Source of the DNA: an uncultured Muribaculaceae bacterium | GTDB lineage: Bacteria > Bacteroidota > Bacteroidia > Bacteroidales > Muribaculaceae | NCBI GenBank assembly: GCA_947176745.1 | Contig: CAMWRV010000019.1 | Location: 1 to 46,501, forward strand | DNA: 46,501 bases | Direction of reading: 5' to 3' | Shown: positions 16,778 through 46,501 of the stretch, one piece after another | Numbering within the stretch: position 1 is the first letter of the stretch | Layout: every line of letters starts with the position of its first letter | Made by a program: the position numbers and the translations under genes | Notes under the pieces: generated by a model | Databases searched by the model: none | Told to the model about the DNA's origin: nothing | What the model saw: only the letters and a program-made list of their open reading frames with translations

Positions 16778-16818
16778 TCTGATATCTTTATTGTTATGAT
16801 GTATCACACAATATGCGT

Positions 16819-17862: not shown

Positions 17863-17882
17863 GGGCGTGGCTTGAGGGTTAT

Positions 17883-19451: not shown

Positions 19452-19485
19452 ATCGTCAGTCACTTATTTCGGTTCGACGGTTCAA

Positions 19486-19559
19486 ATTCCGGTTCAAATT
19501 CGGGTTCAAATCACGGTTCAAATCACGGTTCAAATCACGGTTCAAATCACGGTTCAAAT
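19486..19559. repeat. 12-bp tandem repeats at and beyond the porW stop codon
   Basis: On the plus strand GGTTCAAATCAC recurs in four consecutive 12-bp units, flanked by related units GGTTCAAATTCC and GGTTCAAATTCG. Read leftward, the coding form is CCGGAATTTGAA (Pro-Glu-Phe-Glu). The four CCGTGATTTGAA units carry in-frame TGA codons at 19547, 19535, 19523 and 19511 (lowest base of each). The frame past them stays open to a TGA at 19460-19462. Confidence 0.9.
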
Positions 19560-22528: not shown

Positions 22529-22545
22529 AGATTTAAAACGACTGA

Positions 22546-22575
22546 CAAGTATATCTTATTAGACCCCATCCCAAA
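22546..22575 (-). promoter_or_regulatory. Putative porW promoter
   Basis: Read leftward, TTTG (22575-22572), 18-nt spacer, TATACTTG (22553-22546), one mismatch from TAnnTTTG. The box ends 17 nt before the porW ATG. The spacer contains the AGACCCC arm of the neighbouring hairpin. Confidence 0.45.
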
Positions 22576-22601
22576 AAAATATTGATACAAGGGCGGGGTC
22601 T
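22561..22601. other. Hairpin between divergent porW and the glutaminyl-cyclase gene
   Basis: AGACCCC (22561-22567) pairs perfectly with GGGGTCT (22595-22601). Three further C-G pairs form after a small bulge, leaving an A/T-rich loop of about 18 nt. Plus-strand DNA after it is T-rich (TTATTGC then about ten T), which looks like a terminator, yet no gene reads into it from the left. It may insulate the divergent genes or act in porW regulation. Confidence 0.45.
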
Positions 22602-22630
22602 TATTGCATTTTTTTTTGTAATTTTGCGAT

Positions 22631-23593: not shown

Positions 23594-23599
23594 CCTGAC

Positions 23600-23633
23600 G
23601 GGGAGACGGGCCGGATCACGGCATTCTCTCCCC
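23600..23633 (+). other. Hairpin between the cyclase gene and tyrS
   Basis: GGGGAGA (23600-23606) pairs with TCTCCCC (23627-23633), and GCCG/CGGC pairs inside the loop. No T-run follows, so it is a weak terminator candidate or a leader structure of tyrS. Confidence 0.3.
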
Positions 23634-23653
23634 CCGCAAGAAAAACAAAAGAT

Positions 23654-24946: not shown

Positions 24947-24974
24947 CGGCAAACCGGAATTGACAGCAAGCCAT

Positions 24975-26639: not shown

Positions 26640-26701
26640 CACGAGACGACCCTGCCGGAACGCATAAATGCCCTGGCAGACAGCATGGCGGGGCTAAAAA
26701 A

Positions 26702-26717
26702 GCGTTTTGATAAACGC
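26702..26717. promoter_or_regulatory. Perfect 16-nt palindromic hairpin upstream of susC
   Basis: GCGTTT-TGAT-AAACGC, preceded by a run of six A, about 76 nt upstream of the susC -33 element. It could be the SusR-like activator's site or part of a terminator for susR; the sequence alone does not decide. Confidence 0.4.
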
Positions 26718-26792
26718 ACACGCAACAAAACGATATATAACTATAATTCAACACATTAGCAAAGAAAGCCATTTAGATTTTCCTTTGATGCA

Positions 26793-26824
26793 TTTGACAG
26801 AGTCAATGATAATATGGAATTTTG
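26793..26824 (+). promoter_or_regulatory. Promoter of the sus operon
   Basis: TTTG (26793-26796), 20-nt spacer, GAATTTTG (26817-26824), one mismatch from TAnnTTTG. The predicted leader is about 110 nt. The remaining DNA between susR and susC holds the palindrome at 26702-26717 and the leader repeats at 26837-26879. Confidence 0.55.
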
Positions 26825-26836
26825 CAACTGATAAGA

Positions 26837-26879
26837 GCGCGGCATAAACGACGACGCGCAAGCAAGGCGCGGCATAAAC
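26837..26879 (+). repeat. 13-bp direct repeat in the susC leader
   Basis: GCGCGGCATAAAC occurs twice (26837-26849 and 26867-26879), 30 bp apart, inside the predicted 5' untranslated region. Nothing else in the leader is recognisable; the function is unknown. Confidence 0.75.
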
Positions 26880-26942
26880 CACTGCTCGCAAGAGTGAGGT
26901 CCGCCTTCCGGGAAAGGAAACAACAAAACAACAATAACAATC

Positions 26943-29906: not shown

Positions 29907-29927
29907 CCACAAACACAGGCAAACCAA

Positions 29928-31697
29928 ATGAAAACAACAAGATATATCGGCGGCCTGCTTGCGGCAGCCGCCATGACAGCCGGCATGACCTCGTGCACGG
30001 ACCTCGACGAAGTGTCGTACGACCGCATCGACGCCTCAGTCTACTATCAGGATGAAAACAGCGTCAAGGGAGCTGTAGCGTCGATCTACGCGAGCGGCAC
30101 CGCCGGATTCCTCGAATACTTCTGGTATCTGAACGAATTTTCAGCCGACCAGGTGGCATGGCGCACATGGAACGGCGGCCAGTGGGGCTATGACGAGGCC
30201 GAGAAATTCGTGCTCTCCTCCCACACATGGAACTCCGAGTCGAAGATCATCCGCTCGGCATGGGAGAACGCATGGACCACGATCGGACTCTGCAACACGC
30301 TCATAGCCGACCTTGAGTCGCTCGACCCGTCGGCACTCCGCATGACCCGCGAGGGACTCGACAGCTACATAGCCGAAGTGCGCACCATGCGCGCATGGGC
30401 CTACTACAACAACTTCGAACTGTGGGGCGGCGCACTTCCGCTCAATATCGCCAACGACGGCAACATACCCGGCTCGGCCGATGCCGACTTCGACACCGGC
30501 TGCCGCGTGATCTGGCAGTTCATAGCCGACGAACTCGACGGCTGCTGGGAGAGCCTGCCTGCCGAAGACGGCTCCGGCCAGACCCGCAACCGCCTCAACC
30601 GCATGACCAACCGCATGCTCAAGATGCGTCTGCTTCTGAACTCCGCCCTGTGGACCGGCACCGACCGCTACGCCGAATGCGCCGAACTCTGCGAGGAGAT
30701 GCTCGACGGCCGCTACGGCGTCTACAGCCTCGCCGCCGACTACCGCGACATATTCGGCATCAACAACACCGCCTGCGGTGAAGTGGTGTTCGCCTTCGCC
30801 ATGGAAGAGGGACAGATGACCAACAACAACCGCAACACACCTTTCCTGCCCTACAACTACGGCGACATACTCGGCGGCTCCTGGAGCCAGGCCGGCTGGA
30901 ACTGCACCTGCCTCGTGCCCTCGAAAGACAACAGCGGCACCGTGCTTGCCGACGGAGGCACCGACAATCCGCGCAGCTTCCTGTATGACTACGGCGACAA
31001 ACTCGGCGCCGTCTACGACCGCTTCAACGACAAGGATGTCCGCAAACAGCCCTTCAGCTGCGACGCCTCGGGCAACTGGCAGGGAATATTCCTCATGGGC
31101 TCGCAGAACGTGACCGCCGACGCCGACCGCGACGGCCGTAACCTCGTCTATGTCGACCAGGTCGGAACATTCCTCAACCTCGGCCGTCAGCTTGAGACCG
31201 TGATGAGTCCCCGGTGGGGAGAGACCAGCTCTGGCTACCGCCTGCTGAAATATCCCATATATCCCGAGTCGAACGGCATAGACTGGCGCGACATCGACGA
31301 GGTGGAGTTCCGTCTTGCCGAGGTATATTACACACTCGCCGAATGCCGTCTGAGAGCCGGCAATCCTTCGGAAGCCAAACGCCTTGTCAACCAGGTGCGC
31401 AGCCGCTACTTCACTGACAAGAACGAGATCGAGGAGCCCGGACCCGGCTTCACAAGCTTCGACGCTGACTGGATGCTCAGCGAATGGGGCCTTGAATTCC
31501 TCAACGAAGGACGCCGCCGCCGCACAGACCTGCGCCGCTTCGACAAGTTCACACAGGGCCAGTGGTGGTTCTTCGGCCGCGCCACAGAGACCGACCGCCA
31601 GCTCCCCGCGCAGCGCGACCGCCGCTACGAGTGGTTTCCGCTCCCGCAGTCAGCTCTCATGGTCAACCCCGGCTTAGTTCAAAATCCCAACTACTAA
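29928..31697 (+). CDS. susD: SusD/RagB-family surface glycan-binding lipoprotein
   Basis: Surface lipoprotein that binds the glycan and caps the SusC barrel. The 589-residue protein has a lipobox (GMTSC, Cys24) and then the SusD alpha-helical fold with TPR helices: YIAEVRTMRAWAYYNNFELWG (one residue over a line, typical RAxxY motif) and RNRLNRMTNRMLKMRLLL. The C-terminal DEVEFRLAEVYYTLAECRLRAGNPSEAKRLVNQVR region is followed by WMLSEWGLEFLNEGRRRRTDLRRFDKF, all hallmarks of the family. It follows susC by 21 nt and is almost certainly in the same transcript. Confidence 0.94.
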   Translation: MKTTRYIGGLLAAAAMTAGMTSCTDLDEVSYDRIDASVYYQDENSVKGAVASIYASGTAGFLEYFWYLNEFSADQVAWRTWNGGQWGYDEAEKFVLSSHTWNSESKIIRSAWENAWTTIGLCNTLIADLESLDPSALRMTREGLDSYIAEVRTMRAWAYYNNFELWGGALPLNIANDGNIPGSADADFDTGCRVIWQFIADELDGCWESLPAEDGSGQTRNRLNRMTNRMLKMRLLLNSALWTGTDRYAECAELCEEMLDGRYGVYSLAADYRDIFGINNTACGEVVFAFAMEEGQMTNNNRNTPFLPYNYGDILGGSWSQAGWNCTCLVPSKDNSGTVLADGGTDNPRSFLYDYGDKLGAVYDRFNDKDVRKQPFSCDASGNWQGIFLMGSQNVTADADRDGRNLVYVDQVGTFLNLGRQLETVMSPRWGETSSGYRLLKYPIYPESNGIDWRDIDEVEFRLAEVYYTLAECRLRAGNPSEAKRLVNQVRSRYFTDKNEIEEPGPGFTSFDADWMLSEWGLEFLNEGRRRRTDLRRFDKFTQGQWWFFGRATETDRQLPAQRDRRYEWFPLPQSALMVNPGLVQNPNY

Positions 31698-31709
31698 GAT
31701 AGAAACACA

Positions 31710-33176
31710 ATGAAAAAGATAAATATATCATATATCCTGATGCTGGCCCTTCTGCCCATGCTGTGGGCCTGCAGCAAGGAAGAGATAATCTTCGACTCGG
31801 AACTTCCGCAGTTCGAGACCCGCGCCGGTTATCAGCTTCTTGAGGTGATCGTGCCTCAGAACACCTCCGCCACCGACAAGATCTACATAGCAGGCGCGTT
31901 CAACGGGGGCGCGGAGGCTGCCGCCGGCGACCCTCGCTGGGAGCTGGAGAAAGCTCCGAAGACAGACGCCAAATGGGGCATATACCTCAATCCCGCCGAC
32001 TTCGCCGAGGGCACGTCGCTGGCCGACGGCTACCGCTTCATCTCCGTGGAGCAGGGGGAAGAGCGCACACTTGCCAACAGCGAGGCCCTGCACACCGAAG
32101 CACCCGCAGCAGGCTCGCGCCTCAACGTGACCGTGGAGCGCTGGGCGGCATACTTCGACACACCGCAGAACCCCGACGAGATCGAACATGACGGATATGT
32201 GATCTACGTGGTCGACAACTCCGGATTCTCCGACCTCGCCATGTACGCCTGGGGTGACGCCGAGGCATTCGGCGGATGGCCCGGCATTAAGATGACAGGC
32301 ACAGTAGCCATCGACGGCACTACCTACAAATACTTCGACACAGGAGAAGCCAACAAAGGACTCAGCGTCAACCTGATCTTCAACGACAACGGCGGCGGTC
32401 AGCAGCTCGGCGACTACAGCGTCACCCTCGACCGCGACTACTACCTTGAGCTCACGCCCGGCGGCGTGCTCGAATACGATCCCTCGGCATCGGTGACACA
32501 TGACGGATTCGCGGTGTTTGTCTATGACCAGAGCGGATGGAGCGACCTCTACCTCTACATGTGGGGCGACACCAACGACCTCAACGGCGCGTGGCCCGGC
32601 ATGTCGCCGACCGGCACGCAGACCATCAACGGCGTGACCTACAAATACTTCGACCTCGGCGAAGCCAACATCGGCCAGAACGAACACGTCATACTCAACG
32701 ACGGCGACGCCACACAGATCGACGATGTGGTGGTGTTCGCATGCGACCGCGACGTCTATATCGAGCTGAAGGGAGGAAAAGCCACCGAGATCGACCCGGA
32801 GACCTACCAACCGTCGGGCGACACCCCCGTAACCCCCGATCCGGACCCGACGCCCGATCCCGACGCCACATACTACTCGATCTATGTGGAGGACAACACC
32901 GGCTGGGACAACCTCTACATCTACGCATGGGGCGACAAAGAGACCTTCGGCGGCTGGCCCGGCAAGGAATGCGACAGAACGACCACCATCGCCGGCGTGA
33001 CATACAAGGTATGGACCGTGGCCGGAGCAGGCGAGACCGAGAACCTCATCTTCAACGACAACGCCGGACTCCAGTATGACGCCGCCACCGTCACGCTCGA
33101 CCGCGACTATACGTTCAGCGCCGGATCCGAATCGGCGATTTCAAAGAAACCAGTCAAAATTGTAAGGAAAAGATGA
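31710..33176 (+). CDS. SusE/F-position surface lipoprotein with three CBM26-type starch-binding modules
   Basis: Likely holds starch at the cell surface for the GH13 enzyme. The 488-residue protein has a lipoprotein signal (lipobox LWAC, Cys21) and an N-terminal beta-domain (~40-150) resembling SusE/F-type domains. Three tandem modules follow at ~163-250, 266-354 and 388-471. Each repeats the pattern V-D-NSG-W-D-LYLYAWGD ... GGWPG ... Y-YF-D ... LIFND ... LDRDYY, the aromatic pattern of starch-binding module 26. A Pro/Asp-rich linker (TPDPDPTPDPDA) precedes module 3. No catalytic motif. It replaces both SusE and SusF of the classical locus. Its stop overlaps the next start (ATGA). Confidence 0.87.
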   Translation: MKKINISYILMLALLPMLWACSKEEIIFDSELPQFETRAGYQLLEVIVPQNTSATDKIYIAGAFNGGAEAAAGDPRWELEKAPKTDAKWGIYLNPADFAEGTSLADGYRFISVEQGEERTLANSEALHTEAPAAGSRLNVTVERWAAYFDTPQNPDEIEHDGYVIYVVDNSGFSDLAMYAWGDAEAFGGWPGIKMTGTVAIDGTTYKYFDTGEANKGLSVNLIFNDNGGGQQLGDYSVTLDRDYYLELTPGGVLEYDPSASVTHDGFAVFVYDQSGWSDLYLYMWGDTNDLNGAWPGMSPTGTQTINGVTYKYFDLGEANIGQNEHVILNDGDATQIDDVVVFACDRDVYIELKGGKATEIDPETYQPSGDTPVTPDPDPTPDPDATYYSIYVEDNTGWDNLYIYAWGDKETFGGWPGKECDRTTTIAGVTYKVWTVAGAGETENLIFNDNAGLQYDAATVTLDRDYTFSAGSESAISKKPVKIVRKR

Positions 33177-34510
33177 ATACAAGAGATATAAGCAAAGCGT
33201 TCATACTGGCCATGTCGGCGGCAGCGCTGACCGGCTGCGGCTCAGACGACATGGATATGCCCTCGAACCCCGCGCTCCCCGAAACGGGAGCCGAGGTCTC
33301 GACGAGCGTGATCTATCAGGCCAATCCCCGCTTCTTCGCCAAGAACGGATGCCTCGGCGCCCTGACAGCGCATGTGGAGGAGATAGCCTCCATGGGCTGC
33401 GACATACTCTGGGTGATGCCCGTAATGGAACAGGGTGAGAAAGATGCGTTCGGCTCACCCTACTGCATACGCGACTTCAAGGCTGTCAATCCGGACTACG
33501 GCACGATGGCCGACTTCAGGCGTCTCGTCGAGACCGCCCACGGCGCGGGCATGAAAGTCATGCTCGACTGGGTGGCCAACCACACAGCCTGGGATCACAG
33601 CTGGACAGTGACCCACCCCGAATACTACGTGCGCGACGCGGCCGGCAACATACAGCAGGCATCGACATGGACCGACGTGGCGCAGCTCGACTTCAGCAAC
33701 CCCGACACTGCCGGGGCAATGGCCGACGCCATGCTCTACTGGGTAGAGCAAAGTGACATCGACGGTTTCCGTTGCGACTACGCCGACGGCGTCCCCCACT
33801 CGTTCTGGGAGGAGACCATCGCGAAGCTGCGAGAGGCGAAACCGGGACTTCTCATGCTGGCCGAGAGCCGCGACGCCGGCTTCTATGCCGACGGCTTCGA
33901 CATGATCTACGACTGGGACTTCGCGCCCGCCATGTCGGCAGTATTCAACGGCGGCAAACCCTCCGACCTCTTCGCCAAGGCGGCCTCGACATGGAGCGCG
34001 GTGCCCGAGGGGAAAGAACTGCTCCGCTACGCGTTCAACCATGACTTCGCAGCCGAGAACGCGACCGGCACCACCTACGGCACACCCGAAGGAGCCGAGG
34101 CGGCCTACGTGCTGACAGCGATGCTCGGCGGCACGCCGATGATCTACTCGTCGATGGATGCCGACACCGACGGAGGCACACTGTCGTTCTTCAGCTACAC
34201 GCCGCTTGACTGGTCGTCGGCAAAACGCGGGCGGCTCGGCGCGATCAACCGCGCATACAAGGCCACAGCCGAGGCACGCCGAGGCGAACTGACCACCTAT
34301 GCCAACAGCAAGGCCGTGATGTTCACCCGCGCCACACCCGAACAGAAAATGCTCGTGATAGTCAACCCGACCGGCGGCCAGCTGACAGTCAAGACACCGA
34401 TCACACTCGCAGGCGAGACCATGACCGACCTTATCGGCGAAGGCGAGGTGACACTCCCCGCGGCAGTGACACTCGACGCCTACGGATATACCATCTACCT
34501 GAAACGCTGA
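33173..34510 (+). CDS. GH13 alpha-amylase family surface lipoprotein (SusG-like)
   Basis: Cuts alpha-1,4-glucan at the cell surface, in the role of SusG. The 445-residue protein has a lipobox (LTGC, Cys22), then the GH13 barrel with conserved regions DWVANHTAWDH (I), GFRCDYADG with the Asp nucleophile (II), LMLAESRDAG with the Glu acid/base (III) and FNHDFAAE with the transition-state Asp (IV). It is much shorter than SusG (about 690 residues) and has no inserted CBM, so binding is presumably supplied by the neighbouring CBM26 lipoprotein. Region II has DYADG instead of the common DxxKH, a deviation worth noting. Translationally coupled to the upstream gene through ATGA. Confidence 0.93.
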   Translation: MNTRDISKAFILAMSAAALTGCGSDDMDMPSNPALPETGAEVSTSVIYQANPRFFAKNGCLGALTAHVEEIASMGCDILWVMPVMEQGEKDAFGSPYCIRDFKAVNPDYGTMADFRRLVETAHGAGMKVMLDWVANHTAWDHSWTVTHPEYYVRDAAGNIQQASTWTDVAQLDFSNPDTAGAMADAMLYWVEQSDIDGFRCDYADGVPHSFWEETIAKLREAKPGLLMLAESRDAGFYADGFDMIYDWDFAPAMSAVFNGGKPSDLFAKAASTWSAVPEGKELLRYAFNHDFAAENATGTTYGTPEGAEAAYVLTAMLGGTPMIYSSMDADTDGGTLSFFSYTPLDWSSAKRGRLGAINRAYKATAEARRGELTTYANSKAVMFTRATPEQKMLVIVNPTGGQLTVKTPITLAGETMTDLIGEGEVTLPAAVTLDAYGYTIYLKR

Positions 34511-36801: not shown

Positions 36802-36820
36802 ATTGTCTGTGGCTGAGGGC

Positions 36821-36924
36821 GCGACCGGACCGGGAGCAGCGGCTCTCCGAGCCGTTGAAAACTGTGAGAGCGTAGAGGGCTTTTTGTCAACGCCTCGGAG
36901 AGGCGCTGCTCCCGGTCCGGTCGC
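36821..36924. repeat. 104-bp inverted-repeat element (REP-like copies 2 and 3)
   Basis: Arms 36821-36858 and 36887-36924 are 38-bp inverted copies differing at two positions only; a 28-bp spacer separates them. Each arm contains its own mini-hairpin: CGGCTC-TCC-GAGCCG on the left, CGCCTC-GGA-GAGGCG on the right. The two differences are exactly the two bases of one pair in the mini-hairpin (G-C swapped to C-G). Bases 36887-36916 are identical to 17883-17912. The right arm ends 5 nt from the promoter of the next gene. Confidence 0.9.
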
Positions 36925-36928
36925 AGCG

Positions 36929-36960: not shown

Positions 36961-36986
36961 CGGTGCGAATATCTGAAACGAACACA

Positions 36987-38789
36987 ATGAGGCCACATCA
37001 TATACTCCCGCTGATCGCCATGCTCCTTGTCGTCCTTGCATTCTCCTGCGGCTCAAGGGGTGGCTACGGTGATGTTTTCGCCGAAGCAGAGAAGCGGATC
37101 TCCGAACATCCCGACTCCACGACAGTGGCATACCTCGAAAGCCTCGCCGCCGACACCACATGGACGAAAGATATGCGGGAATCCGACCGTGCGCGATTCT
37201 CCCTTCTCCGCGTCAAAGCCGCCGACAAGGCATACGTACGCCACACATCCGACTCGCTGATCCGCACCACACTCGCATATTACGAAAACCACACCGGTTC
37301 GGATCACTACCCCGAGGCACTCTATTATGGCGGCCGCGTCTACTCCGACCTCGGCGACTCGCCCACGGCACTGCGCTATTTCCAGACAGCCCTCGACGCT
37401 GTTCCTAAAAAAGGCGCGGAAACACAGAGGGCGAAGGTGTTGAGTCAGACGGGGCGCCTGATGAACAGGATGCGTATGTATGACGAGGCCATCAGATATC
37501 TGGATGAGGCGATCCGGATCGAGTCTATGCTGAAAGACTCCGTCAGTGTTGCCTATGACTATGAGTTGTCAGGGGCAATCTTTCTGCATGTCGACAGTCT
37601 GGACCGGGCAAAAGAAAGATTCCATAAAGCCCTCGCCCTATGTAGGCCGGAATCCTCTCTTTGGGCAAGGCAATATACATATCTGGCCGCTGCGGAACTT
37701 AATGGAGGAGATCCTGCAGAGGCCGCCAGGCTGATACGCGGTATGCCTGCAAGAATCTCCGGCACATACCGATCGACATCGATGGGATACGCTGCGATGA
37801 TATATCTTGAGGCAGGACAGTATGATTCCGCCAGGTTTTACGCAGAGAGGATTCTCGGTGAGCGAGACCCGCGTAACCGAAGGATCGCCTACAGTGTGCT
37901 GCTCTCTCCGCATGTCAAAGAAACGCTTCATCCAGACAGCGTGGAGAAATATTATGTAAGGTATGGGGAAGAGGTGTCGGAATTCGCGGAAAACAACAAC
38001 CGGGAGGCATGTGCGGTCAGCAACGCCATATACAACTACGGACTACATGACCGCAGACGACAACAGGCGGAAGATGAGAAAATGACATATGCGATAGCCG
38101 GTCTGTGTCTTCTGCTGGCCCTGTTTGTCATGAGTCTTGTGACTGTTGTCATCAGACACCGGCATAACCGCAACAGACTCGAACTATACGAGGCTCTGGA
38201 TAACATAAGGACTCTGAGAGGTCTGCTGGAGTCGGCACATCCGGAACGGGAAGAAAAGGAGAAGGATGCGGAAACGGATAATAAGGCTGACGTTGACACG
38301 GAATCTTGTCATGACAAGACATCCGGACTGACCGATGCCGAGACCGAAGAAGAAAGACTGCGCACGACATTGAGAAAGGAACTGCTTGGATTGATAGCCG
38401 TATCGTCAAAATATTCGAGACCGTCGAAAAACTGCGTTGTTCCGGACAGTATTGCAAAGTCTGATGCGTACAAGTACGTTTGCCGGTGTCTTGAAACCGG
38501 AACCGCTCTTCCTCCTGACGGGGCAGTATGGCATGATCTGAAGATGCTGGCCCGAGAAGTATGGCCCAGTCTTCAAGACAGACTTGACATGCTTGCGGGG
38601 TCACACATAAAAGAGAAGGACTATCGTTTGTGTCTTCTGATAAAACTCGGATTCTCGCCGACCGATATCACCGTTCTGACGGGCAGGACAAAGGGCACGA
38701 TATCTTCGCGGAGAGCCAGATTATGCAGGGAAATTCTCGGGGAGAACGCTGGAGCCGGTGGATTTGACATAGTGATATTGTCGTTATAG
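36987..38789 (+). CDS. Membrane-tethered regulator: lipoprotein signal, TPRs, one TM helix, cytoplasmic HTH
   Basis: Probable one-protein sensor/transcription factor for the peptide cluster that follows. The 600-residue protein (from the ATG at 36987) has a lipoprotein-like signal (AFSC, Cys21) and periplasmic TPR repeats (~100-330; YPEALYYGGRVYSDLGDSPTALRYF split here, MYDEAIRYLDEAIRIE). One TM helix follows (~367-389), then a coiled and highly charged linker (~395-460), and a C-terminal HTH-like segment (~545-585; KLGFSPTDITVLTGRTKGTI). It parallels the SusR-like protein 12 kb away but is not a close copy. By eye its first ~450 bp look as GC-rich as the starch locus and the rest more AT-rich. 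The operator at 38830-38879 starts 40 nt after its stop. Confidence 0.75.
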   Translation: MRPHHILPLIAMLLVVLAFSCGSRGGYGDVFAEAEKRISEHPDSTTVAYLESLAADTTWTKDMRESDRARFSLLRVKAADKAYVRHTSDSLIRTTLAYYENHTGSDHYPEALYYGGRVYSDLGDSPTALRYFQTALDAVPKKGAETQRAKVLSQTGRLMNRMRMYDEAIRYLDEAIRIESMLKDSVSVAYDYELSGAIFLHVDSLDRAKERFHKALALCRPESSLWARQYTYLAAAELNGGDPAEAARLIRGMPARISGTYRSTSMGYAAMIYLEAGQYDSARFYAERILGERDPRNRRIAYSVLLSPHVKETLHPDSVEKYYVRYGEEVSEFAENNNREACAVSNAIYNYGLHDRRRQQAEDEKMTYAIAGLCLLLALFVMSLVTVVIRHRHNRNRLELYEALDNIRTLRGLLESAHPEREEKEKDAETDNKADVDTESCHDKTSGLTDAETEEERLRTTLRKELLGLIAVSSKYSRPSKNCVVPDSIAKSDAYKYVCRCLETGTALPPDGAVWHDLKMLAREVWPSLQDRLDMLAGSHIKEKDYRLCLLIKLGFSPTDITVLTGRTKGTISSRRARLCREILGENAGAGGFDIVILSL

Positions 38790-38829
38790 GCATGCTTGTA
38801 TAACACATATACGCATCAGCAGGTGTGTT

Positions 38830-38879
38830 TTTGTGCGATTTTTGTGCGATTTTTCATTTTCGCACAAAAATCGCACAAA
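38830..38879. promoter_or_regulatory. Four-box operator: 20-bp perfect inverted repeat built of 9-bp boxes
   Basis: The box TTTGTGCGA occurs at 38830 and 38841 on the plus strand, and its complement TCGCACAAA at 38860 and 38871. The arms 38830-38849 and 38860-38879 are therefore perfect 20-bp inverted copies, spaced by 10 bp. Box period within each arm is 11 bp, about one helical turn. The last box ends 5 bp before the TTTG -33 element of the next promoter, the usual place for an activator site. The product of the preceding gene is the obvious candidate binder (inference). Confidence 0.8.
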
Positions 38880-38884
38880 TTAAT

Positions 38885-38915
38885 TTTGAAAACAGGGTGT
38901 TTTGCCATACATTTG
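38885..38915 (+). promoter_or_regulatory. Promoter of the peptide (RiPP) operon
   Basis: TTTG (38885-38888), 19-nt spacer, TACATTTG (38908-38915): an exact Bacteroidetes consensus with ideal spacing. The -7 box ends 24 nt before the ATG at 38940. Confidence 0.8.
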
Positions 38916-38939
38916 CCGCCGTAACCAACATCATAAACC

Positions 38940-39323
38940 ATGTCAAAAACAAAAATTCTTGCTTGTATGGCAATGGCCTGCCTGTCATTCGGAAGTATGG
39001 CAATTACGCCCGGAACAACCTGTTCGGTCCAGTTGTTTCCTGCCGGACTGACAATGCACCCCGAGGAAGGGGAAGAAGGCAACCGCAAACCCTCGCGCCC
39101 ATTGGCGTGTACGATCGATCCGGATTCGGGAATCAGTTTCATCGGTCAGGAGACACCGGATTTCATACTGTATGAGATCTACGACAGCGGAAACATGTGT
39201 GTGTGCGCGTATGGAAACGAGCCGGCGTTTATCGACGCGCTTTTCTCTCTGACCGGCGAATACCGCATCAGCCTCAGCACGGAGGAAGCCTCGTATACTG
39301 GATACATAATTCTGAGAAAATAA
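38940..39323 (+). CDS. Small secreted DUF3244-like protein
   Basis: A 127-residue protein with a signal peptide (MSKTKILACMAMACLSFGSMA) and a single predicted beta-sandwich domain. Its last third (LFSLTGEYRISLSTEEASYTGYIILRK, one domain end) has the look of DUF3244, a small Bacteroidetes secreted domain. Four Cys are present (positions 9 and 14 in the signal, others in TTCSV, LACTI, MCVCAY). It is the first gene of the peptide operon, 37 nt before the radical SAM gene. The function is not known; an accessory periplasmic or surface factor for the mature peptide is a guess. Confidence 0.6.
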   Translation: MSKTKILACMAMACLSFGSMAITPGTTCSVQLFPAGLTMHPEEGEEGNRKPSRPLACTIDPDSGISFIGQETPDFILYEIYDSGNMCVCAYGNEPAFIDALFSLTGEYRISLSTEEASYTGYIILRK

Positions 39324-39360
39324 TTATCCGGATGTAACACTCACATAACAAAATCTGCAT

Positions 39361-40668
39361 ATGAAAGCAAGCGAGTACAACTATATGATTCCTTTCGGAG
39401 AAAATGTGCTTTTTGTCAATGGGATAACAGAGGCATTTTTCAAAGTTTCGCGATCCAATGCTGATGCTTATAAAAAAATAATAGACAATCCGGATACCAA
39501 CCGGAAAATCTACGGCGCGTTCATAAGCAGAATGATGTCACAGGGCTTCATTATCGACGATGCGGTCAATGAAGCAGATGTAATACGCCGCAAGTTTGAG
39601 AGCAAACGAGTGGGGCACCAATATTATCTGATGGTTCTTCCGACATATCAGTGTAATCTCAGATGCTGGTATTGCACTCAGAATCATGAGAATCTTTTCA
39701 TGGACGACCTGACATTCGAGAAGATCAAGAGTCTTGTCAAACGAAAACTTGACAATGACAAAATAAAGGATTTTCATCTTGCATGGTTCGGCGGCGAACC
39801 TCTTCTTGCATATGACAAGCTCCTTGAACTGACAGTCTTCGCACGGGATCTTACCAAGGAACTCGGAAAATCTTTTTCCTCATCCATCACAACAAACGGA
39901 ACTTTGCTCAATCCTGAACGCATAGAGTCTCTTCGAGAGGCCGGAATCGGACACTACCAGATCACCCTCGACGGCGACAGAAAAATGCACAATTCCATCA
40001 AGGAACTTGGCAGAATATCCGCCTATGACAGAACCCTTGACAACATCAACCTGATAGCGCGTCACACATCTGTCAGTCTGAGATTCAATTATACAAAAGA
40101 CAATCTTCGACCCGGAATGATATTCCGCGATCTTGAAAACAAACTCAACCCGGAGGTAAGAAAAAATATTGCTTTCACAATCTTCAAGGTCTGGCAGGAA
40201 GACACATCGCTTTCCGATAGTAAAGATGTAGACGAGCTTTTCAGAAAAGGTGTGGCATCAGGAATGTATTCGACGCTCTACACATCGGGTGTATGTTATG
40301 CCGACTACGAGCATTTTGATTGCATATTCCCGCAAGGATATGTAGGCAAATGCGACAATCATTCTCCGGAGGAGGCACCCGGAGTTCTTCAGGATGACGG
40401 AACGATTGTATGGCGCGAGGATATGTCGGAGTATTACTCTCCCGGTCTGTTCAGCGAGAAGCAGAAAGAGTGCAACAGCTGCCGCTATCTTCCTCTGTGC
40501 TTCGGACCATGCGTATCCAAGAGAGAGAACATGCTGAGAAATAAAGGCGTCATATCGTGCGTATATCAGAATCGTGAAAGAGACATGACCCGCAATATAG
40601 TGAATATGGTAAAGACTGTATTGCAGAAGACTTCTTTGGACAACAAACAGCAGAATATCAGTTCATGA
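39361..40668 (+). CDS. Radical SAM/SPASM peptide maturase
   Basis: Probably modifies the Cys-rich precursor encoded 2.2 kb downstream. The 435-residue protein has an N-terminal ~85-residue domain of the kind that recognises leader peptides. The radical SAM motif CNLRCWYC follows (C98, C102, C105, binding the first 4Fe-4S cluster), with FGGEPLL and TTNGTLL. The C-terminal SPASM domain has canonical Cys spacing: C321-x4-G-x4-C331, then C371-x2-C374-x5-C380-x3-C384 and C400, enough for two auxiliary clusters. Relatives install thioether or C-C crosslinks, or mature sulfatases; no sulfatase is nearby, so a peptide role is favoured. Visibly more AT-rich than the starch genes. Confidence 0.9.
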   Translation: MKASEYNYMIPFGENVLFVNGITEAFFKVSRSNADAYKKIIDNPDTNRKIYGAFISRMMSQGFIIDDAVNEADVIRRKFESKRVGHQYYLMVLPTYQCNLRCWYCTQNHENLFMDDLTFEKIKSLVKRKLDNDKIKDFHLAWFGGEPLLAYDKLLELTVFARDLTKELGKSFSSSITTNGTLLNPERIESLREAGIGHYQITLDGDRKMHNSIKELGRISAYDRTLDNINLIARHTSVSLRFNYTKDNLRPGMIFRDLENKLNPEVRKNIAFTIFKVWQEDTSLSDSKDVDELFRKGVASGMYSTLYTSGVCYADYEHFDCIFPQGYVGKCDNHSPEEAPGVLQDDGTIVWREDMSEYYSPGLFSEKQKECNSCRYLPLCFGPCVSKRENMLRNKGVISCVYQNRERDMTRNIVNMVKTVLQKTSLDNKQQNISS

Positions 40669-40733
40669 TGACATTCAAGCTGTCTGATCATGATAAAAGC
40701 ACCATAATACATTAACACCAAACCGGTATATCT

Positions 40734-42848
40734 ATGAAAAGATCGAGAATAATATTGACTGTTTCACTCATTGCAGCCGTTTTCAGCGGACGGGCGCAGG
40801 AGAATTCTGTCAACACGTCAGTTCCGGAGGCGGAGACAGACACAGTCGGTCGTCAGCTTCAGGAAATTGTGGTGGAGGGACGCATGCAGCGCAACATAGA
40901 GGGAGGCGTAGAATACATTCCTGACAAGAAAGCCAAGAAATTTGCGATGGACGCCATAAGTCTGCTGTCCATCATGATGATACCACAGCTTAACGTCACC
41001 CCCGACAACACGGTAAAGAGCGCGAGCGGAGAAAATGTGAAGATATTCATAGACTACGTGGAAGCCACCGAAACCGATACCAGCGGACTGCGTCCTGAAG
41101 ACGTGCTGCGAGTAGAGGTGCTCGACTATCCGGAAGACCCCAGATTCAAACATTCGGAACACGTGGTCAATTTCATAATGCGCAAGTATGAGTGGGGAGG
41201 ATATACGAAGCTCATGGCGAGCGGACGGCTGCTGTTCGATGAAAATATATGGGGCGGCCTCTATCAGAAATTCTCCTACAAAAACTGGATGTACGACTTC
41301 TCGGCCTCTGGCGACGGCACATGGAACAGATATGTAGACAAACGCACAAGCGAGACATTTCGTGATTTCTTTTTTGACGGTACGCATTACGACGACGTGT
41401 CAAGAATAACCTCGACAGAACGCAAAAGAGGACGCGACAACAACCAAAACGCCTCGATGCGCGTCAGATATAACACTGACAGAATGAACATCGGCCATAC
41501 CGTTTCTTTCGCGCGGTACGCTCAGCCCGCGTCCGACATATATTCCCGAGTGGAATACACCGGCATTCCGCTTGCCGACACATACACCACGGAAAGCAAA
41601 AATTCCGGGAGCACTGGAGGATGGATTACCGGCAACTACTGGTTCTCTCTGCCGGAGAACAACAGTCTGCAGGCAGACTGGACACTGGGATTCGACGACA
41701 TAAGGCAAAACAGATCATACCGGACAGGCGATCTCGGATCAATAGACAACGACAACCGTATGAAATTCTATTACCCGCATCTGAACGTCACACACTCGAA
41801 GAATCTCGGACATGGCAACAGTATAGGAGCAATGATATATTCATCCTATTACATACATGACACCCGGTACTGCTATCTGGAGGACAGCCGCATCAGATCG
41901 GTAAATTCCGAGAATCTGTTGGCTGTCAACTATTCTCAGAGATGGGAATTCGGTCTTTCTGTCAATGCCCGTGTCGGGGCCAACTATATCTTCACTCGTC
42001 AGAATGGAGTGGATCACACGCATCACTGGACTCCTTACGGAACAGTTTCGCTCACCTACTCGCCAGATTCCAGAAACAGCTTCCGCCTTACGGGAGCATG
42101 GTTTGAAAATCAGGCATATGCGGCTGAAGCCGACAACGTAATTCTCCGTCAGGATGAACTCATATGGTATAAAGGAAATCCGGAACTGAGAAATCCAGAC
42201 AAGAAGTGGATGATGTTGACTTACTCTCTCATACCCTCCAACAGACTGTCGATGTATGCCTATGCCCTGTATACGAATATACGTCACGGATCTGTCTATG
42301 ACTTCACGACTGTCAAAGGATATGACGGAGTTGTGAGGACATACGGCGATATCAATACCGAGCATAACATAGACGGAGGAGTGAACCTTTCCCTCAATCT
42401 TTTCAACCGATCCTTGTCACTGATGGGCACAGGAATAATCCGAAGGGATATCAGCAGCGGCATGCATCCGATGACCAATACGGATTTTTTGGGCAGATTC
42501 ATTCTCTCGTGGACTTACCGGAACTTTTTTATCATGGCATGGTATAATACACCCGAAACGTCAGTTTTCAGCAAAATGGGTTATCGAATAAGCAATCCCG
42601 AGGAATACGGAATAAGGACATTTTACTCATTCGGTAATTGGAAGCTGCAGCTAATATTCTCAAACTGGTTCTCGGCCAGAAAAATCCACAAAAACTATAG
42701 TTCGCCACATTATGATTATTCGGGATGGGAATCAAAGACGAGATTTGCGATTCTTTCTGTTAACTATACCATTCCTTACGGCAAGCCGGTGAACCGGAAC
42801 GACGAGATCCAGTCTCAGTCTGCCGCAAGCGGAGGATTCTTAGAATAA
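40734..42848 (+). CDS. Outer-membrane beta-barrel receptor-like protein (plug plus barrel)
   Basis: A 704-residue protein with a signal peptide (MKRSRIILTVSLIAAVFSGRA) and LQEIVVEGRMQ in the TonB-box/plug-start position. A short plug-like region follows (~50-140, LLSIMMIPQLNVTPDN, VKIFIDYVEA), then a long barrel of alternating aromatic strands. It matches the outer-membrane barrel family that usually follows a plug in TonB-dependent receptors. The CarboxypepD-like N-terminal domain of SusC proteins is absent. Set between the maturase and the precursor, it may export, import or confer self-protection to the peptide; which cannot be told. Total length is near the ~700-900 of its relatives. Confidence 0.78.
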   Translation: MKRSRIILTVSLIAAVFSGRAQENSVNTSVPEAETDTVGRQLQEIVVEGRMQRNIEGGVEYIPDKKAKKFAMDAISLLSIMMIPQLNVTPDNTVKSASGENVKIFIDYVEATETDTSGLRPEDVLRVEVLDYPEDPRFKHSEHVVNFIMRKYEWGGYTKLMASGRLLFDENIWGGLYQKFSYKNWMYDFSASGDGTWNRYVDKRTSETFRDFFFDGTHYDDVSRITSTERKRGRDNNQNASMRVRYNTDRMNIGHTVSFARYAQPASDIYSRVEYTGIPLADTYTTESKNSGSTGGWITGNYWFSLPENNSLQADWTLGFDDIRQNRSYRTGDLGSIDNDNRMKFYYPHLNVTHSKNLGHGNSIGAMIYSSYYIHDTRYCYLEDSRIRSVNSENLLAVNYSQRWEFGLSVNARVGANYIFTRQNGVDHTHHWTPYGTVSLTYSPDSRNSFRLTGAWFENQAYAAEADNVILRQDELIWYKGNPELRNPDKKWMMLTYSLIPSNRLSMYAYALYTNIRHGSVYDFTTVKGYDGVVRTYGDINTEHNIDGGVNLSLNLFNRSLSLMGTGIIRRDISSGMHPMTNTDFLGRFILSWTYRNFFIMAWYNTPETSVFSKMGYRISNPEEYGIRTFYSFGNWKLQLIFSNWFSARKIHKNYSSPHYDYSGWESKTRFAILSVNYTIPYGKPVNRNDEIQSQSAASGGFLE

Positions 42849-42852
42849 GAAA

Positions 42853-42866
42853 CCGTCTTACGACGG
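42853..42866 (+). other. Short hairpin in front of the precursor gene
   Basis: CCGTC-TTAC-GACGG, four nt past the barrel gene stop and 28 nt before the precursor ATG. Such an element can separate mRNA segments so that the small precursor gene is more abundant; this is inference. Confidence 0.35.
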
Positions 42867-42894
42867 AAATAAAAATAATCTAAACATCAAAGTC

Positions 42895-43128
42895 ATGGAG
42901 AAATCAAAAAAAGAAGTTATTCCGACAATGGAATTACTGAATGAAATGGAATCTCTTGAGATCTACGGCGGCATCGGAGGAGATGTGTATGGCACGGACG
43001 ACATCAACACAAATTGTGGCGGAGCAAACTGCGGTTGCACTCCTCCTCCGCCTGATCCCGAGATTCATCCAAATGGTGTACAGACATGCAATTCTAATTG
43101 CGGAGGCGGGACAAATTGCCCCGTATAA
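42895..43128 (+). CDS. Cys-rich RiPP precursor peptide with double-glycine leader
   Basis: Likely substrate of the radical SAM maturase and the C39 exporter. The 77-residue peptide has a charged leader with no signal peptide (MEKSKKEVIPTMELLNEMES) and a GG site at 25-26. Hydrophobic residues stand at -4 (I23), -12 (L15) and -15 (M12) relative to the cut, the classic double-glycine pattern. The predicted core is residues 27-77, with Cys at 41, 46, 48, 65, 69 and 75 around a Pro-rich hinge (PPPPDPE). Two copies of an NCGG(A/GT)NC motif (40-46 and 68-75) flank the hinge. Placed directly before the exporter, as in known systems. Confidence 0.82.
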   Translation: MEKSKKEVIPTMELLNEMESLEIYGGIGGDVYGTDDINTNCGGANCGCTPPPPDPEIHPNGVQTCNSNCGGGTNCPV

Positions 43129-43186
43129 CGGCAAATATGAGATGTTGTGATCTGATTATTTAATTCTTAAGATGAGGCATCCATAA

Positions 43187-45400
43187 ATGTTGAATCTGAG
43201 ATTCAGATCCATGCGATTCAAAACGGTGAGACAACGCGACGCCATGCAATGTGGTGCCGCGTGTCTCACCGGTGTGTGTAGATTCTACGGCGGGAGACAT
43301 ACGCTCGACGAAGTGTCGGATCTATGTCAAACTTCGACAGAAGGTGTATCGCTCAAAGCTATTTCCAATACAGCACAAAAGCTCGGTTTTGAAACGATAT
43401 GCGCGCGTGCATCAGTCGATTCCCTTCTTGAAAATATTGCTCCTGCGATTCTGCATTGGAATCAGAATCATTTTGTGGTTCTCTACAAAATATCCCGTAA
43501 AGGGCAAAGGTTTCATCTGTCTGATCCGGCAAAAGGGAATATCACTCTCTCCCGTAATGAATTCGAACAGCACTGGTTAAGTCATACTGTCAATGACTGT
43601 CCGAGAGGGATAGTCCTTTTTTTGTCGCCATCCGAACAATTCAAGACAAATTCAACAGCATCGGATTCTCGCTCGAAAAAGACCGGAATGCTGATTGGAT
43701 ATATAAAACAATACAAAACACATTTTTTACATGTATTCGCCGGTATTGTTTTGGGATGTGTGCTGCAACTTATCATGCCGTTTCTTACTCAGGCAGTAGT
43801 CGACAAGGGTATTCACGACAAAAACATCGGTTTCATATGGCTTGTATTGCTTGGCCAGTTCATGATAGTGACCGGGCGGACTGCTACCGATTTCATCAGG
43901 CGTTGGCTGCTGTTGCATATCTCGATGCGCGTAAATCTGTCGTTGGTCAGCTGCTTTTTAATAAAGCTTCTGAAACTTCCGATGAACTTTTTTGACACTC
44001 GACTTATGGGAGATATCCTGCAGCGTATAGGAGATCATTCACGCGTTCAGTCGTTCCTTACAGGACAACTCCTCGGCACTGCGTTCTCTATGATAAGTCT
44101 TGTTGTGTTTGGAATTGTACTGTTCATTTACAGTTTACCGGTATTTGCTGTTTTTATCACAGGAAGCCTGTTGTATTCGATATGGATCAGTGTATTTTTG
44201 CGTCGGCGCAAGATACTTGACTATGAACTCTTCGACTGCGAGGCACGCAACCGGAATCTCACATACCGCTTTGTTACCTCGATGCAGGAGATCAAACTGC
44301 AGGACTGTGAACATCGGCGCAGAATGGAATGGGAGGATACTCAGGCCAATCTCTTTTCCATACAAATGAAAGTGCTGCGTCTTCAGCAACTACAGGAAGC
44401 AGGTTCAATCTTTATCAACGAAGTAAAGAACATACTTATAACCATCATTGCCGCATCGTCGGTAATAGACGGAGGCATGACATTAGGCGGAATGCTTGCG
44501 GTACAGTATGTGATCGGTCAGCTTAATTCACCCCTTGATCAGATGATGAGATTTATCTATTCATTACAGGATGTGCGGATCTCACTCGAACGTATTGACG
44601 AGGTGCATCACCGGAGCGATGAGGAGGCAGCTTACAGAGGAACGCCATTACCGGAAAACTCAGGAGAAATAAAGATTTCAAACTTAACTTTCAAATACAA
44701 TCCGCACTCTCCGGTCAACGCTCTTGACGGAATATCATTCGCTATACCCTCAGGGCGTATCACGGCTATTGTAGGTGCGTCCGGAAGCGGAAAGACAACC
44801 CTGATAAAACTTCTGCTCGGATATTATGAACCGACAGAAGGCAATATAACTCTGGGCGATCGTGATCTCAGGGAATATTCAATAAGAAACTGGCGGCGGA
44901 GATGCGGTGTGGTCATGCAGGACGGGGTCATCTTCTCCGAATCGATAGCGCGTAACATCGCCATAAATGATGATGAGATAGACAGCATACGTCTGATACA
45001 GGCGTCGAAACTTGCATGCATACATGATTATATAAAGAGTCTCCCGTTAGGATATGACACGAAGGTCGGGCCGGATGGCACAGGACTCAGCCAGGGACAG
45101 AAACAACGGATTCTGATTGCGAGAGCAGTTTACAAAAATCCTGATTATATTTTTTTAGACGAGGCGACTAACTCGCTTGACGCCCTTAATGAACATGACA
45201 TTACAAAAAATCTGGAAGAGTTTTTTGACGGCCGTACGGTAATTATCGTGGCTCATCGACTATCTACTGTAAGAAATGCTGATAATATCATTGTGCTTGA
45301 TCGAGGCCGTATTGTTGAGACAGGAACTCACGAAAAGCTTGTGGCAACGAAAGGCGCGTATTTCGAACTTATTCGTAATCAGATGGAGCTGGGAGATTGA
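43187..45400 (+). CDS. C39-peptidase-containing ABC exporter (PCAT) for a double-glycine peptide
   Basis: Inner-membrane transporter that cuts the leader after GG and exports the peptide with ATP. The 737-residue protein has an N-terminal C39 papain-like domain (~10-130), with the oxyanion Gln16, catalytic Cys22 in QCGAACL, His in NHFVVLY and Asp in LSDPAKG. The six-helix ABC membrane domain (~160-440) follows, then the nucleotide-binding domain with Walker A GASGSGKTT, signature LSQGQKQR, Walker B YIFLDEATN and switch VAHRLS. All active residues are intact. It starts 58 nt after the precursor gene; an ATG at 43211 is an alternative start. Normally paired with a HlyD adaptor, here only a stub. 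Confidence 0.95.
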   Translation: MLNLRFRSMRFKTVRQRDAMQCGAACLTGVCRFYGGRHTLDEVSDLCQTSTEGVSLKAISNTAQKLGFETICARASVDSLLENIAPAILHWNQNHFVVLYKISRKGQRFHLSDPAKGNITLSRNEFEQHWLSHTVNDCPRGIVLFLSPSEQFKTNSTASDSRSKKTGMLIGYIKQYKTHFLHVFAGIVLGCVLQLIMPFLTQAVVDKGIHDKNIGFIWLVLLGQFMIVTGRTATDFIRRWLLLHISMRVNLSLVSCFLIKLLKLPMNFFDTRLMGDILQRIGDHSRVQSFLTGQLLGTAFSMISLVVFGIVLFIYSLPVFAVFITGSLLYSIWISVFLRRRKILDYELFDCEARNRNLTYRFVTSMQEIKLQDCEHRRRMEWEDTQANLFSIQMKVLRLQQLQEAGSIFINEVKNILITIIAASSVIDGGMTLGGMLAVQYVIGQLNSPLDQMMRFIYSLQDVRISLERIDEVHHRSDEEAAYRGTPLPENSGEIKISNLTFKYNPHSPVNALDGISFAIPSGRITAIVGASGSGKTTLIKLLLGYYEPTEGNITLGDRDLREYSIRNWRRRCGVVMQDGVIFSESIARNIAINDDEIDSIRLIQASKLACIHDYIKSLPLGYDTKVGPDGTGLSQGQKQRILIARAVYKNPDYIFLDEATNSLDALNEHDITKNLEEFFDGRTVIIVAHRLSTVRNADNIIVLDRGRIVETGTHEKLVATKGAYFELIRNQMELGD

Positions 45401-45426
45401 CGTTACAGAGATAGATTTTCAGAGAA

Positions 45427-45627
45427 ATGGGAATACAGAAAAATATAACGGGGTTGAACGGAAAGGGTGACAATCGAGAAAAAAACAGTGTCAAAGCCCC
45501 TCATTCCGAAAAGGTCAGGCATATTTTAGACACGATGCCTGCATCATTACTGTTTTGGAACGCCATAGTAATTACAATAATTTCAGTGTCTCTTGCTCTG
45601 GCCTTTATTTATCTGTCATCGGATTAG
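45427..45627 (+). pseudogene. HlyD-like adaptor stub: N-terminal region and one TM helix only
   Basis: A 66-residue frame that opens 26 nt after the exporter stop, the place expected for the HlyD membrane-fusion partner. Residues 26-62 (HSEKVRHILDTMPASLLFWN, then a hydrophobic helix IVITIISVSLALAFIYL) resemble the start of Bacteroidetes HlyD proteins: SEEV-x-DI, Pro, W, then the TM helix. The frame then ends at TAG, where a true HlyD would continue for about 350 residues. I take it as a 3'-truncated gene; a genuine small membrane protein is the alternative. Sequence after it belongs to a different gene. Confidence 0.5.
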
Positions 45628-45641
45628 TTGCTATTGACAAG

Positions 45642-46289
45642 ATGACTCAACAGGCAAGAAGGGGGCGCGACCGGACGGGGACGGTCAGCGGAGGTGGGTC
45701 TGGATGTGGTAGCGGGGGCGGTGCTTGCAGCGGCGGCAGCTGGCTGCTGTGTGAGGAGGGCGGCAAGGTTAGCGTCCGCTATGTCGATCCGGATGATAAT
45801 GTCAGCTGGCTTCCGCTGTACGATTTCTCGATGACAACAGGAGAAGAGCATCAGATAAGTATAGTCAATGAAAGTGGCTTGTACGATCCACAGCCCGACA
45901 ACAGATGGAAAGTCACCGGCGAGACGAACGTACATGTCAGCGGGGTTACGAGACGCATGATGAGTCTTTCCACGACAGAATCCCATCCCAAGACTGTATG
46001 GGTAGAGGGAGTCGGGGCTCCATATCTTGACGGACAGCTCACATGGTTCTGGTTTCCGCAACCTGACAACGGTATATATCTTGGAGGATTCAAGGAATGT
46101 ATTGAAGACGGAGAGGTCATTTTCAGTTTTGCAGACTTCGGCGATCCAGCCTCAGTGCGCGGAACGGGCGATGACAGCTCTGCCGGTCTGAATGAAGATA
46201 CTATTTATGATGTTATGGGCCGTCGTGTAGACACGACGGTTCCGGGCAGCGTCTACATACGCGGCGGAAAGAAGTTCGTGGCCCGCTGA
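45642..46289 (+). pseudogene. 5'-truncated secreted protein with type IX-like C-terminal tail
   Basis: From about 45744 the frame reads like the second half of a Bacteroidales secreted-protein family: LLCEEGGKVSVRYVDPDDN, LYDFSMTTGE, WVEGVGAPYL, FKECIEDGEVIFSFADF. It ends with IYDVMGRRVDTTVPGSVYI-RGGKKFVAR, a short sorting-domain-like tail common in these bacteria. The expected signal peptide and first ~100 residues are missing. Upstream in frame lies only a basic segment and a Gly/Ser/Cys-rich tract (SGGGSGCGSGGGACSGGSW, 45687-45743). The ATG at 45642 is in frame, as is one at 45555 that overlaps the HlyD stub. Probably non-functional because it has no export signal. Confidence 0.55.
45664..45677. 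repeat. Fragment related to the REP-like element at the truncation junction
   Basis: GGGCGCGACCGGAC (within about 45662-45677) is shared exactly with about 36817-36830, the outer end of the large inverted repeat. It lies between the HlyD stub and the truncated secreted-protein gene. A 14-base match in GC-rich DNA could be chance. Confidence 0.4.
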
Positions 46290-46501
46290 GGGCGGGATGC
46301 TGACACGCTGACGCGAAGCCCTCTGCGGCTCGGCATCGCTCTGCGAAAGGCTATGGAGTGCTTTGACACTTTCGCCTCACGCGGAGGGCGCGGAGGCTTG
46401 CGCCGTAAGTGGGTCCTTTCTTAGATTTAATTTCGGATATAAAGTAAGTAGGGTGTTCAGTTTGATGTTCCGAAAAACGTCATTCAAAACACCTGAAAAT
46501 T
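46290..46501. other. Gene-free right end with two imperfect inverted repeats
   Basis: After the last stop codon, GCCCTCTGCG (46318-46327) and CGCGGAGGGC (46380-46389) can pair over 10 bp with one G-U wobble, enclosing GC-rich sequence: a possible terminator. Further on, GGTGTT (46452-46457) and AACACC (46488-46493) are inverted, together with TTTGATG and CATTCAAA inside them, in AT-richer DNA. No open frame of note is seen. Confidence 0.45.

Follow-up and report, generated by a model that had tools for sequence, protein, structure and literature searches.

The locus examined here raises the question of how a small peptide is made, switched on and released by seven genes that lie together on the + strand (nt 36984–45627) of a contig from an uncultured Muribaculaceae bacterium (assembly GCA_947176745.1, contig CAMWRV010000019.1). 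The whole stretch analysed, which makes up the entire contig and is 46,501 nt in length, is called the window below. Judged by its sequence, the seven-gene set is an operon for a ribosomally synthesized and post-translationally modified peptide (RiPP) of the radical S-adenosylmethionine (rSAM)/C39 type, and the first-pass annotation, which had reported such a system, is borne out: the regulator, secreted protein, maturase, outer-membrane barrel, double-glycine (GG) precursor and C39 exporter, all on one strand, and the promoter were confirmed. The explanation regarded as probable is that a membrane-tethered activator controls this operon through an operator of its own, and that the operon has dedicated export and a mini-adaptor. 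The features are as follows.

36984–38789, + strand: regulator gene, with lipoprotein signal (Cys22), periplasmic tetratricopeptide repeats (TPRs), a transmembrane (TM) segment at 38076–38162 and a cytoplasmic helix-turn-helix (HTH) at 38649–38723; from hydropathy and sequence
38830–38879, no strand: predicted operator, a 20-bp perfect inverted repeat; from genome pattern search and family statistics
38885–38888, + strand: -33 box TTTG; from sequence
38908–38915, + strand: -7 box TACATTTG; from sequence, with the consensus given in the available text of PMC7366714
38940–39323, + strand: small secreted protein (127 aa), first gene of the operon, a predicted immunoglobulin (Ig)-like sandwich, DUF3244-like; from fold matches and homologs
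39361–40668, + strand: rSAM/SPASM peptide maturase (435 aa); from family models, alignment and solved relatives
40734–42848, + strand: outer-membrane beta-barrel (704 aa), OMP_b-brl_3-like; by its relatives
42895–43128, + strand: precursor peptide (77 aa), with leader at 42895–42972 (26 aa, GG end) and core at 42973–43125 (51 aa, 6 Cys)
43187–45400, + strand: C39-peptidase ATP-binding cassette (ABC) exporter (737 aa; PCAT); from domain scans and a solved relative
45427–45627, + strand: mini-adaptor (66 aa, single-pass membrane protein), a HlyD-type N-terminal tail and TM helix without the soluble part; from profile searches

Maturase and precursor

The best NCBIfam score of the maturase is to TIGR04463 (rSAM_vs_C_rich; 120.4 bits, cut-off of 525 not reached), followed by the geopeptide, CefB, Clo7bot, FlmE/OhkG and PapB models; its top-scoring models are thus, on sequence, those for maturases of Cys-rich and related peptides. 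The sulfatase maturase model TIGR03942 gives 58.6 bits (cut-off 349.45). When a profile of the maturase alignment was compared with PDB sequences, CteB (5wgg) was the closest solved structure (2.5e-21), with ChlB (1.4e-11) and anSME (3.9e-10) ranked lower. Identity as a sulfatase maturase, the grouping that the first-pass annotation had named, together with a lack of conservation of the small ORF, as fatal to its reading, is therefore ruled out. The three Cys of the rSAM motif CX3CX2C and eight Cys of the SPASM auxiliary clusters are invariant in 30/30 aligned maturases. Because of these Cys, the relation to CteB and the Cys-rich-peptide models, thioether links of the ranthipeptide or sactipeptide style are expected in the product by analogy.

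Recurrence of the module was counted in 44 nonredundant maturase loci, with denominators restricted to loci with enough flank: at least 2 kb downstream for the barrel, at least 7 kb downstream for the exporter and mini-adaptor, and at least 3.5 kb upstream for the regulator and small protein. A Cys-rich GG precursor (GG open reading frame (ORF) with at least 4 Cys) adjoins the maturase in 29/44 loci, so that the small ORF is conserved beside the maturase, contrary to the other half of that condition. Six homologs of the window precursor were found. The leader motif LLNEMESLEIxGG is kept in all seven peptides, while two core patterns, read by eye, are C-x-G-A-x-C in 6/7 (not P0125) and C-G-x-G-T-x-C in 5/7 (P0124 lacks the last Cys and P0126 is short). 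The cores vary greatly from locus to locus; they contain as many as 13 Cys, and some have tandem Cys repeats, as do those of loci L037, L038 and L040, which look like expanded substrates. The comparison with GG-Bacteroidales precursor models suggested by the first-pass annotation gave no match: none of the NCBIfam precursor families was found for the 77-aa peptide at E <= 10, and of the three precursors tested none matched any NCBIfam family. The current data thus add new Cys-rich GG precursors that NCBIfam leaves unmodelled.

A second full module is present in the same genome, on contig C1:

C1, stretch 14000–33900, positions 7267–16515 of that stretch, - strand: second module of the RiPP type; its two precursors are CxC-rich and have NSVRGG leaders

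It comprises a maturase (26% identical to that of the window), the two precursors, barrel, exporter, an 81-aa mini-adaptor, regulator and small protein. Its maturase is nearer to Clo7bot and TIGR04463 (200 and 192 bits), yet under cut-off. Loci L081, L086 and L092 each carry two maturase/barrel modules within the sequence retrieved.

Exporter, barrel and mini-adaptor

The exporter has C39, TM and ATPase domains, matches the solved relative 4ry2 over its full length, and retains the C39 catalytic residues Cys22, His95 and Asp113. It follows the maturase in 21/30 loci, and the barrel does so in 38/40. The first-pass annotation had taken the pairing with a dedicated barrel as something unmatched, but the pairing is common and also partly published (PMC10352776, in the text available). 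The window barrel has no match to OMP_b-brl_3 (PF14905), while 16/30 aligned relatives do match; a profile of the barrel alignment searched against PDB sequences gave a best E of 0.26, to an unrelated protein. In PHROGs there was no match for the precursor, small protein or barrel.

The 66-aa protein encoded directly after the exporter has a HlyD-type N-terminal tail and ends with a TM segment; the periplasmic hairpin and the lipoyl and barrel domains are absent. A profile of 13 short mini-adaptors gave 30 hits in 61 genomes. The same-genus hits are ORFs of 57–209 aa in 20/20 cases, whereas in other families the hits are N-termini of ORFs of 338–459 aa in 9/10, the tenth ORF being 230 aa. Of the long ORFs, three directly follow a homologous exporter. 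Scans of two of them gave matches to TIGR01843 (1.3e-26 and 2e-22, under cut-off), and one of the two also matches HlyD_3, over cut-off. Matches to TIGR01843 over at least 350 of its 422 positions occur in genomes G042, G043, G048, G050, G058, G059 and G060. None of the 37 same-genus genomes has a match of this length, and the shorter ones that they do contain lie in apparently other adaptors. As the protein is short within the genus and corresponds to the N-terminus of HlyD-like ORFs outside it, the 66-aa protein is read from these comparisons as a truncated HlyD adaptor, cut down to tail and membrane helix. In loci L045 and L050 (Parabacteroides and Bacteroides) the mini-adaptor is about 160 aa; these loci lack the TPR regulator, and response-regulator- and histidine-kinase-like genes, judged from sequence starts, lie upstream on the opposite strand.

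Three observations weigh against a working mini-adaptor. It is present in 11/30 loci, 9/20 same-genus matches cross a stop codon, as in decay, and a 370-aa ORF elsewhere in this genome (C1:92758–93345) shows a partial type-I-adaptor match, so that an adaptor supplied in trans is conceivable. The first two, together with the finding of just two invariant residues across the 13 sequences, would fit a decaying remnant of a HlyD gene without any role. This is unlikely, as short proteins that combine this tail, of consensus RSEKVRxIIGxxPPxLVRWG, with a TM helix recur directly after the exporter in many loci, and a second copy stands in the C1 module. The truncated adaptor may answer part of a published question: Bacteroidales clusters with an exporter and an outer-membrane protein but no adaptor have been described, and it was asked whether one had been missed (PMC10352776, available text). 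A sequence-based explanation for the adaptor missing at such exporters is hereby offered, and the barrel is the obvious candidate for the outer-membrane route after adaptor loss.

The regulator, the small protein and their paralogs

The layout of a membrane-tethered regulator with an adjacent small secreted protein is present in the window, the HTH and topology being read from sequence. The regulator scores 37.2 bits against NF053779 (BT3442 family), under the cut-off of 940, and its HTH had no hit among PDB sequences. Of the description of the small protein as DUF3244-like and secreted, the secreted protein with Ig-like fold matches stood (these were best among the families listed), while membership of DUF3244 (PF11589) by score is ruled out: the window protein gave no hit at the Pfam gathering cut-off, and none of 79 homologs is annotated with the family in precomputed data. 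A link to type IX secretion sorting domains is suggested by fold and not by sequence, the sequence test, with one C-terminal domain, being uninformative. In a search with a profile rebuilt from its own hits, the small protein was the first gene in 31/44.

Two paralogous cassettes in the same genome, on contigs C13 and C16, have regulators of this kind at the head of protease operons, the cargo being a C25 peptidase (C13) and a C10 peptidase with a serpin (C16). They share the regulator N-terminus and the small-protein C-terminus with the window, while operator and cargo differ. A regulator type dedicated to RiPPs, as first proposed, is thus ruled out. In loci L160 and L164 the same head of regulator and small protein stands before genes for putative lipoproteins and a radical SAM protein of 358 aa, perhaps the rSAM/lipoprotein pair of TIGR04133, a guess from the short name of that model.

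These cassettes bear on two other explanations of the operon. The first is an uptake operon like that of methanobactin, in which a metal-binding peptide would be made and the barrel would act as its TonB-type receptor. The cores are Cys-rich, and relatives of the barrel fall in OMP_b-brl_3, a TonB-receptor-like family; yet general scans put no metal uptake or regulation annotation on the seven genes (no search for metal boxes was made), and the sister cassettes hold proteases and a serpin, all of which makes metal uptake rather improbable. The second is that the peptide serves as an autoinducer, sensed by the TPR domain of the regulator, and not as a weapon. A periplasmic TPR regulator is indeed linked to the operon, and TPR proteins answer peptide pheromones in other bacteria (cited in the available text of PMC10352776). 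Such a role is quite doubtful, however, as operons headed by other regulators of this family show no precursor among the genes listed, and the N-terminal part that the regulators share points to a common signal.

A predicted operator behind the regulator gene

The inverted repeat at nt 38830–38879 follows directly after the regulator stop. Within each arm TTTGTGCGA occurs twice, with a spacing of 11 bp, and the inverted repeat ends 5 bp ahead of the promoter sequence TTTG-N19-TACATTTG. A looser form of the pattern, searched genome-wide, had only one match besides that in the window (29 bp, on contig C8, without tandem copies). Exact 7-mer direct repeats were then surveyed in the 140 nt that follow each of 57 nonredundant regulators, taken from 84 hits. 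Repeats with a spacing of 11 were found behind 28/57, with the next-best spacing at 4/57. Two shuffle sets served as controls, the first keeping single-base make-up only and the second keeping dinucleotides (100 shuffles for direct repeats, 10 for inverted repeats); in the 100 dinucleotide shuffles, spacing-11 repeats averaged 0.61, with a maximum of 4. Downstream of other genes they are rare (maturases 2/51, barrels 2/53, exporters 1/32, precursors 0/34). Inverted repeats of at least 10 bp are less telling, being found behind 31/57 regulators but also behind 20/34 precursors.

A box of the form TAnnTTTG follows the repeats in 19/28 regions. With -7-like boxes closer than 15 nt skipped, it starts 27–35 nt past the last repeat in 16 of these 19, the remaining three distances being 18, 75 and 77 nt. 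The repeated site varies with the regulator (GTGCGG, TTACGG, ATAACGG, AGTACGG and GTTC types), and site similarity tracks 12 recognition-helix columns (Mantel r 0.405, p 2e-4, n=28), also when the rest of the protein is taken into account (partial r 0.346, p 2e-4, n=28), which is the sole way in which the test handles relatedness. The other HTH columns correlate more weakly (r 0.233). Fixed phase, fixed promoter distance and co-variation with the helix speak for the inverted repeat as very probably the operator, the activator site of the regulator, and many family members appear, from their sequences, to own a matching DNA site.

A role of the inverted repeat purely as intrinsic terminator for the regulator gene, and not as operator, is very unlikely: long perfect hairpins, T runs often following them, and the inverted repeats behind precursors and also 10/53 barrels would suit one, but a terminator does not need 11-bp direct repeats inside its arms, 10/28 spacing-11 regions have no inverted repeat of at least 10 bp, the -33 box may account for some of the T runs seen close to the repeat, and neither the fixed distance to the -7 box nor the co-variation with the recognition helix is accounted for.

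Proposed mechanism

The genes, their conservation, the operator statistics and the homology of the mini-adaptor allow a mechanism to be proposed, in which activation, the partner role of the small protein, thioether chemistry, export route and biological role are suggestions. The periplasmic TPR half of the regulator would sense a signal, and its cytoplasmic HTH would bind the four half-sites at 38830–38879 and bring RNA polymerase to the -33/-7 promoter that adjoins them. The small Ig-like protein would either partner the regulator in the periplasm or act as its feedback ligand. Core Cys of the 77-aa precursor would be linked to backbone carbons by thioethers through the SPASM enzyme, after which the C39 exporter would cleave behind GG and carry the core across the inner membrane. 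The 66-aa protein would remain with the exporter as a reduced adaptor, and since this could not bridge the periplasm, the peptide would exit in a second step through the dedicated barrel, to act outside the cell, most likely in competition.

Several further observations weigh against this explanation. A regulator lies upstream on the same strand in 16/36 loci and the small protein in 15/36; many RiPP loci are thus without them. There is no exact spacing-11 repeat behind 29/57 regulators, and no operator was seen behind the regulator of the C1 module. Similarity of the site also follows the remainder of the regulator, if more weakly (r 0.245, p 0.014), and therefore relatedness explains part of the helix-site co-variation. 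Termination of the regulator transcript is another possible function of the repeats, and one that may coexist with that of an operator. Lastly, the maturase scores far under the cut-offs of the best 25 of the 77 NCBIfam models it matched, none of the 25 being reached, so that its chemistry is assigned by analogy.

A broader reading is offered tentatively, namely that the regulator with its operator and the small Ig-like protein would make up a head cassette that is used repeatedly. Paralogs in one genome would retain a common input, while their DNA-binding domains have diverged and have private 11-bp phased operators, so that one signal would turn on separate secreted products: a stapled peptide here, the C25 protease, and the C10 protease with serpin. 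Regulator residues 1–120 and the small-protein C-terminus would be kept alike by recombination. If this were true, a helix-to-half-site code would let the target of each regulator be predicted from sequence, and peptide and protease products of one commensal would be linked to one switch family. For an uncharacterised family of gut regulators, the data supply a DNA target open to testing and what may be a recognition code.

Composition, repeats and cassette edges

The G+C content of nt 38790–45640 is 45.4%, compared with 58.2% for nt 1–36983. A close maturase (E <= 1e-60) occurs in 22/397 genomes of the family, this genome counted, and the maturase gene is poorer in G+C than its flanks in 29/32 loci. 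Such a patchy and AT-rich distribution is as expected for transfer, and the acquisition by transfer suggested earlier from the AT-rich composition is plausible. Two features mark the edges of the cassette:

36810–36926, no strand: intergenic repeat resembling repetitive extragenic palindromic (REP) elements, two inverted copies, at the 5' edge
45678–46397, + strand: mosaic 3' edge, a 5'-truncated copy, of which 45678–45727 is like C80 (98%)

The remainder of the 3' edge (45728–46397) is like the 3' part of the gene for a 277-aa protein of the C13 cassette (97%). With up to 2 mismatches allowed, the REP-like core CCTCGGAGAGGCGCTGCTCCC occurs 31 times in the genome, including 3 occurrences in the window, and its backward control 0 times. 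A REP-like palindromic repeat is also found at nt 17870–17932; others adjoin the C13 and C16 regulators, and several occur on C42, C38, C79 and C80 and at cassette edges. The contig end (nt 46438–46501) resembles the ends of C82, C3 and C31, and a repeat immediately past the operon seems to be where the assembly breaks off.

Comparison with known systems

The RiPP part is a variation on an already published cluster type, as clusters with exporter and barrel but no adaptor are in print (PMC10352776, available text). With biosynthetic gene clusters BGC6–9 of that paper the window operon shares an rSAM enzyme (BGC6–8), GG-type precursors, a C39 exporter, an outer-membrane protein and the lack, there, of any adaptor found; it differs in having no YcaO or LanM, and in its truncated adaptor, operator and regulator-small protein head, which the text available does not describe. 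TPR genes that recall the window regulator are carried by BGC2 and BGC9. DUF3244 and TPR genes are among the iron-responsive genes in the tables available from PMC10434189. In the literature searched, as far as its texts were available (regulators, exporters and adaptors, rSAM RiPPs, and the promoter), no description of the truncated adaptor or of a regulator with such an operator was found, and as far as these searches reach the two are not described so far.

The rSAM and SPASM architecture and a Cys-rich substrate are shared with maturases of Cys-rich peptides (TIGR04463, Clo7bot, CefB, PapB, CteB), whereas the window system has a GG leader and C39 export, belongs to Bacteroidales and scores under curated cut-offs. 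Type I secretion (ABC exporter, HlyD, TolC) has the C39-ABC exporter in common with the window, where a homolog of the HlyD N-terminus is encoded directly downstream; unlike that system, the HlyD periplasmic part is absent, the barrel has relatives in OMP_b-brl_3, and nothing TolC-like is among the seven genes. PhoB-type operators consist of 11-bp tandem boxes abutting the upstream promoter box, and the half-sites of the window likewise recur every 11 bp and abut such a box, but here the pairs are inverted, the HTH is apparently of another kind, and the sequence differs per regulator.

In ToxR the DNA-binding domain is N-terminal. A lipocalin-like partner is a trait of such co-component systems; for the small protein of the window, the fold matches that rank best among the families listed are Ig-like. 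The regulators ToxR/ToxS and VtrA/VtrC, as presented in the available text of PMC9214523, resemble that of the window, as predicted from its sequence, in joining a DNA-binding domain, one TM helix and a periplasmic sensor, with the gene of a small periplasmic protein adjoining; the window regulator is set apart by its TPR sensor, lipoprotein N-terminus, predicted Ig-like partner and C-terminal DNA-binding domain, and by a predicted 11-bp phased operator that adjoins the regulator gene itself.

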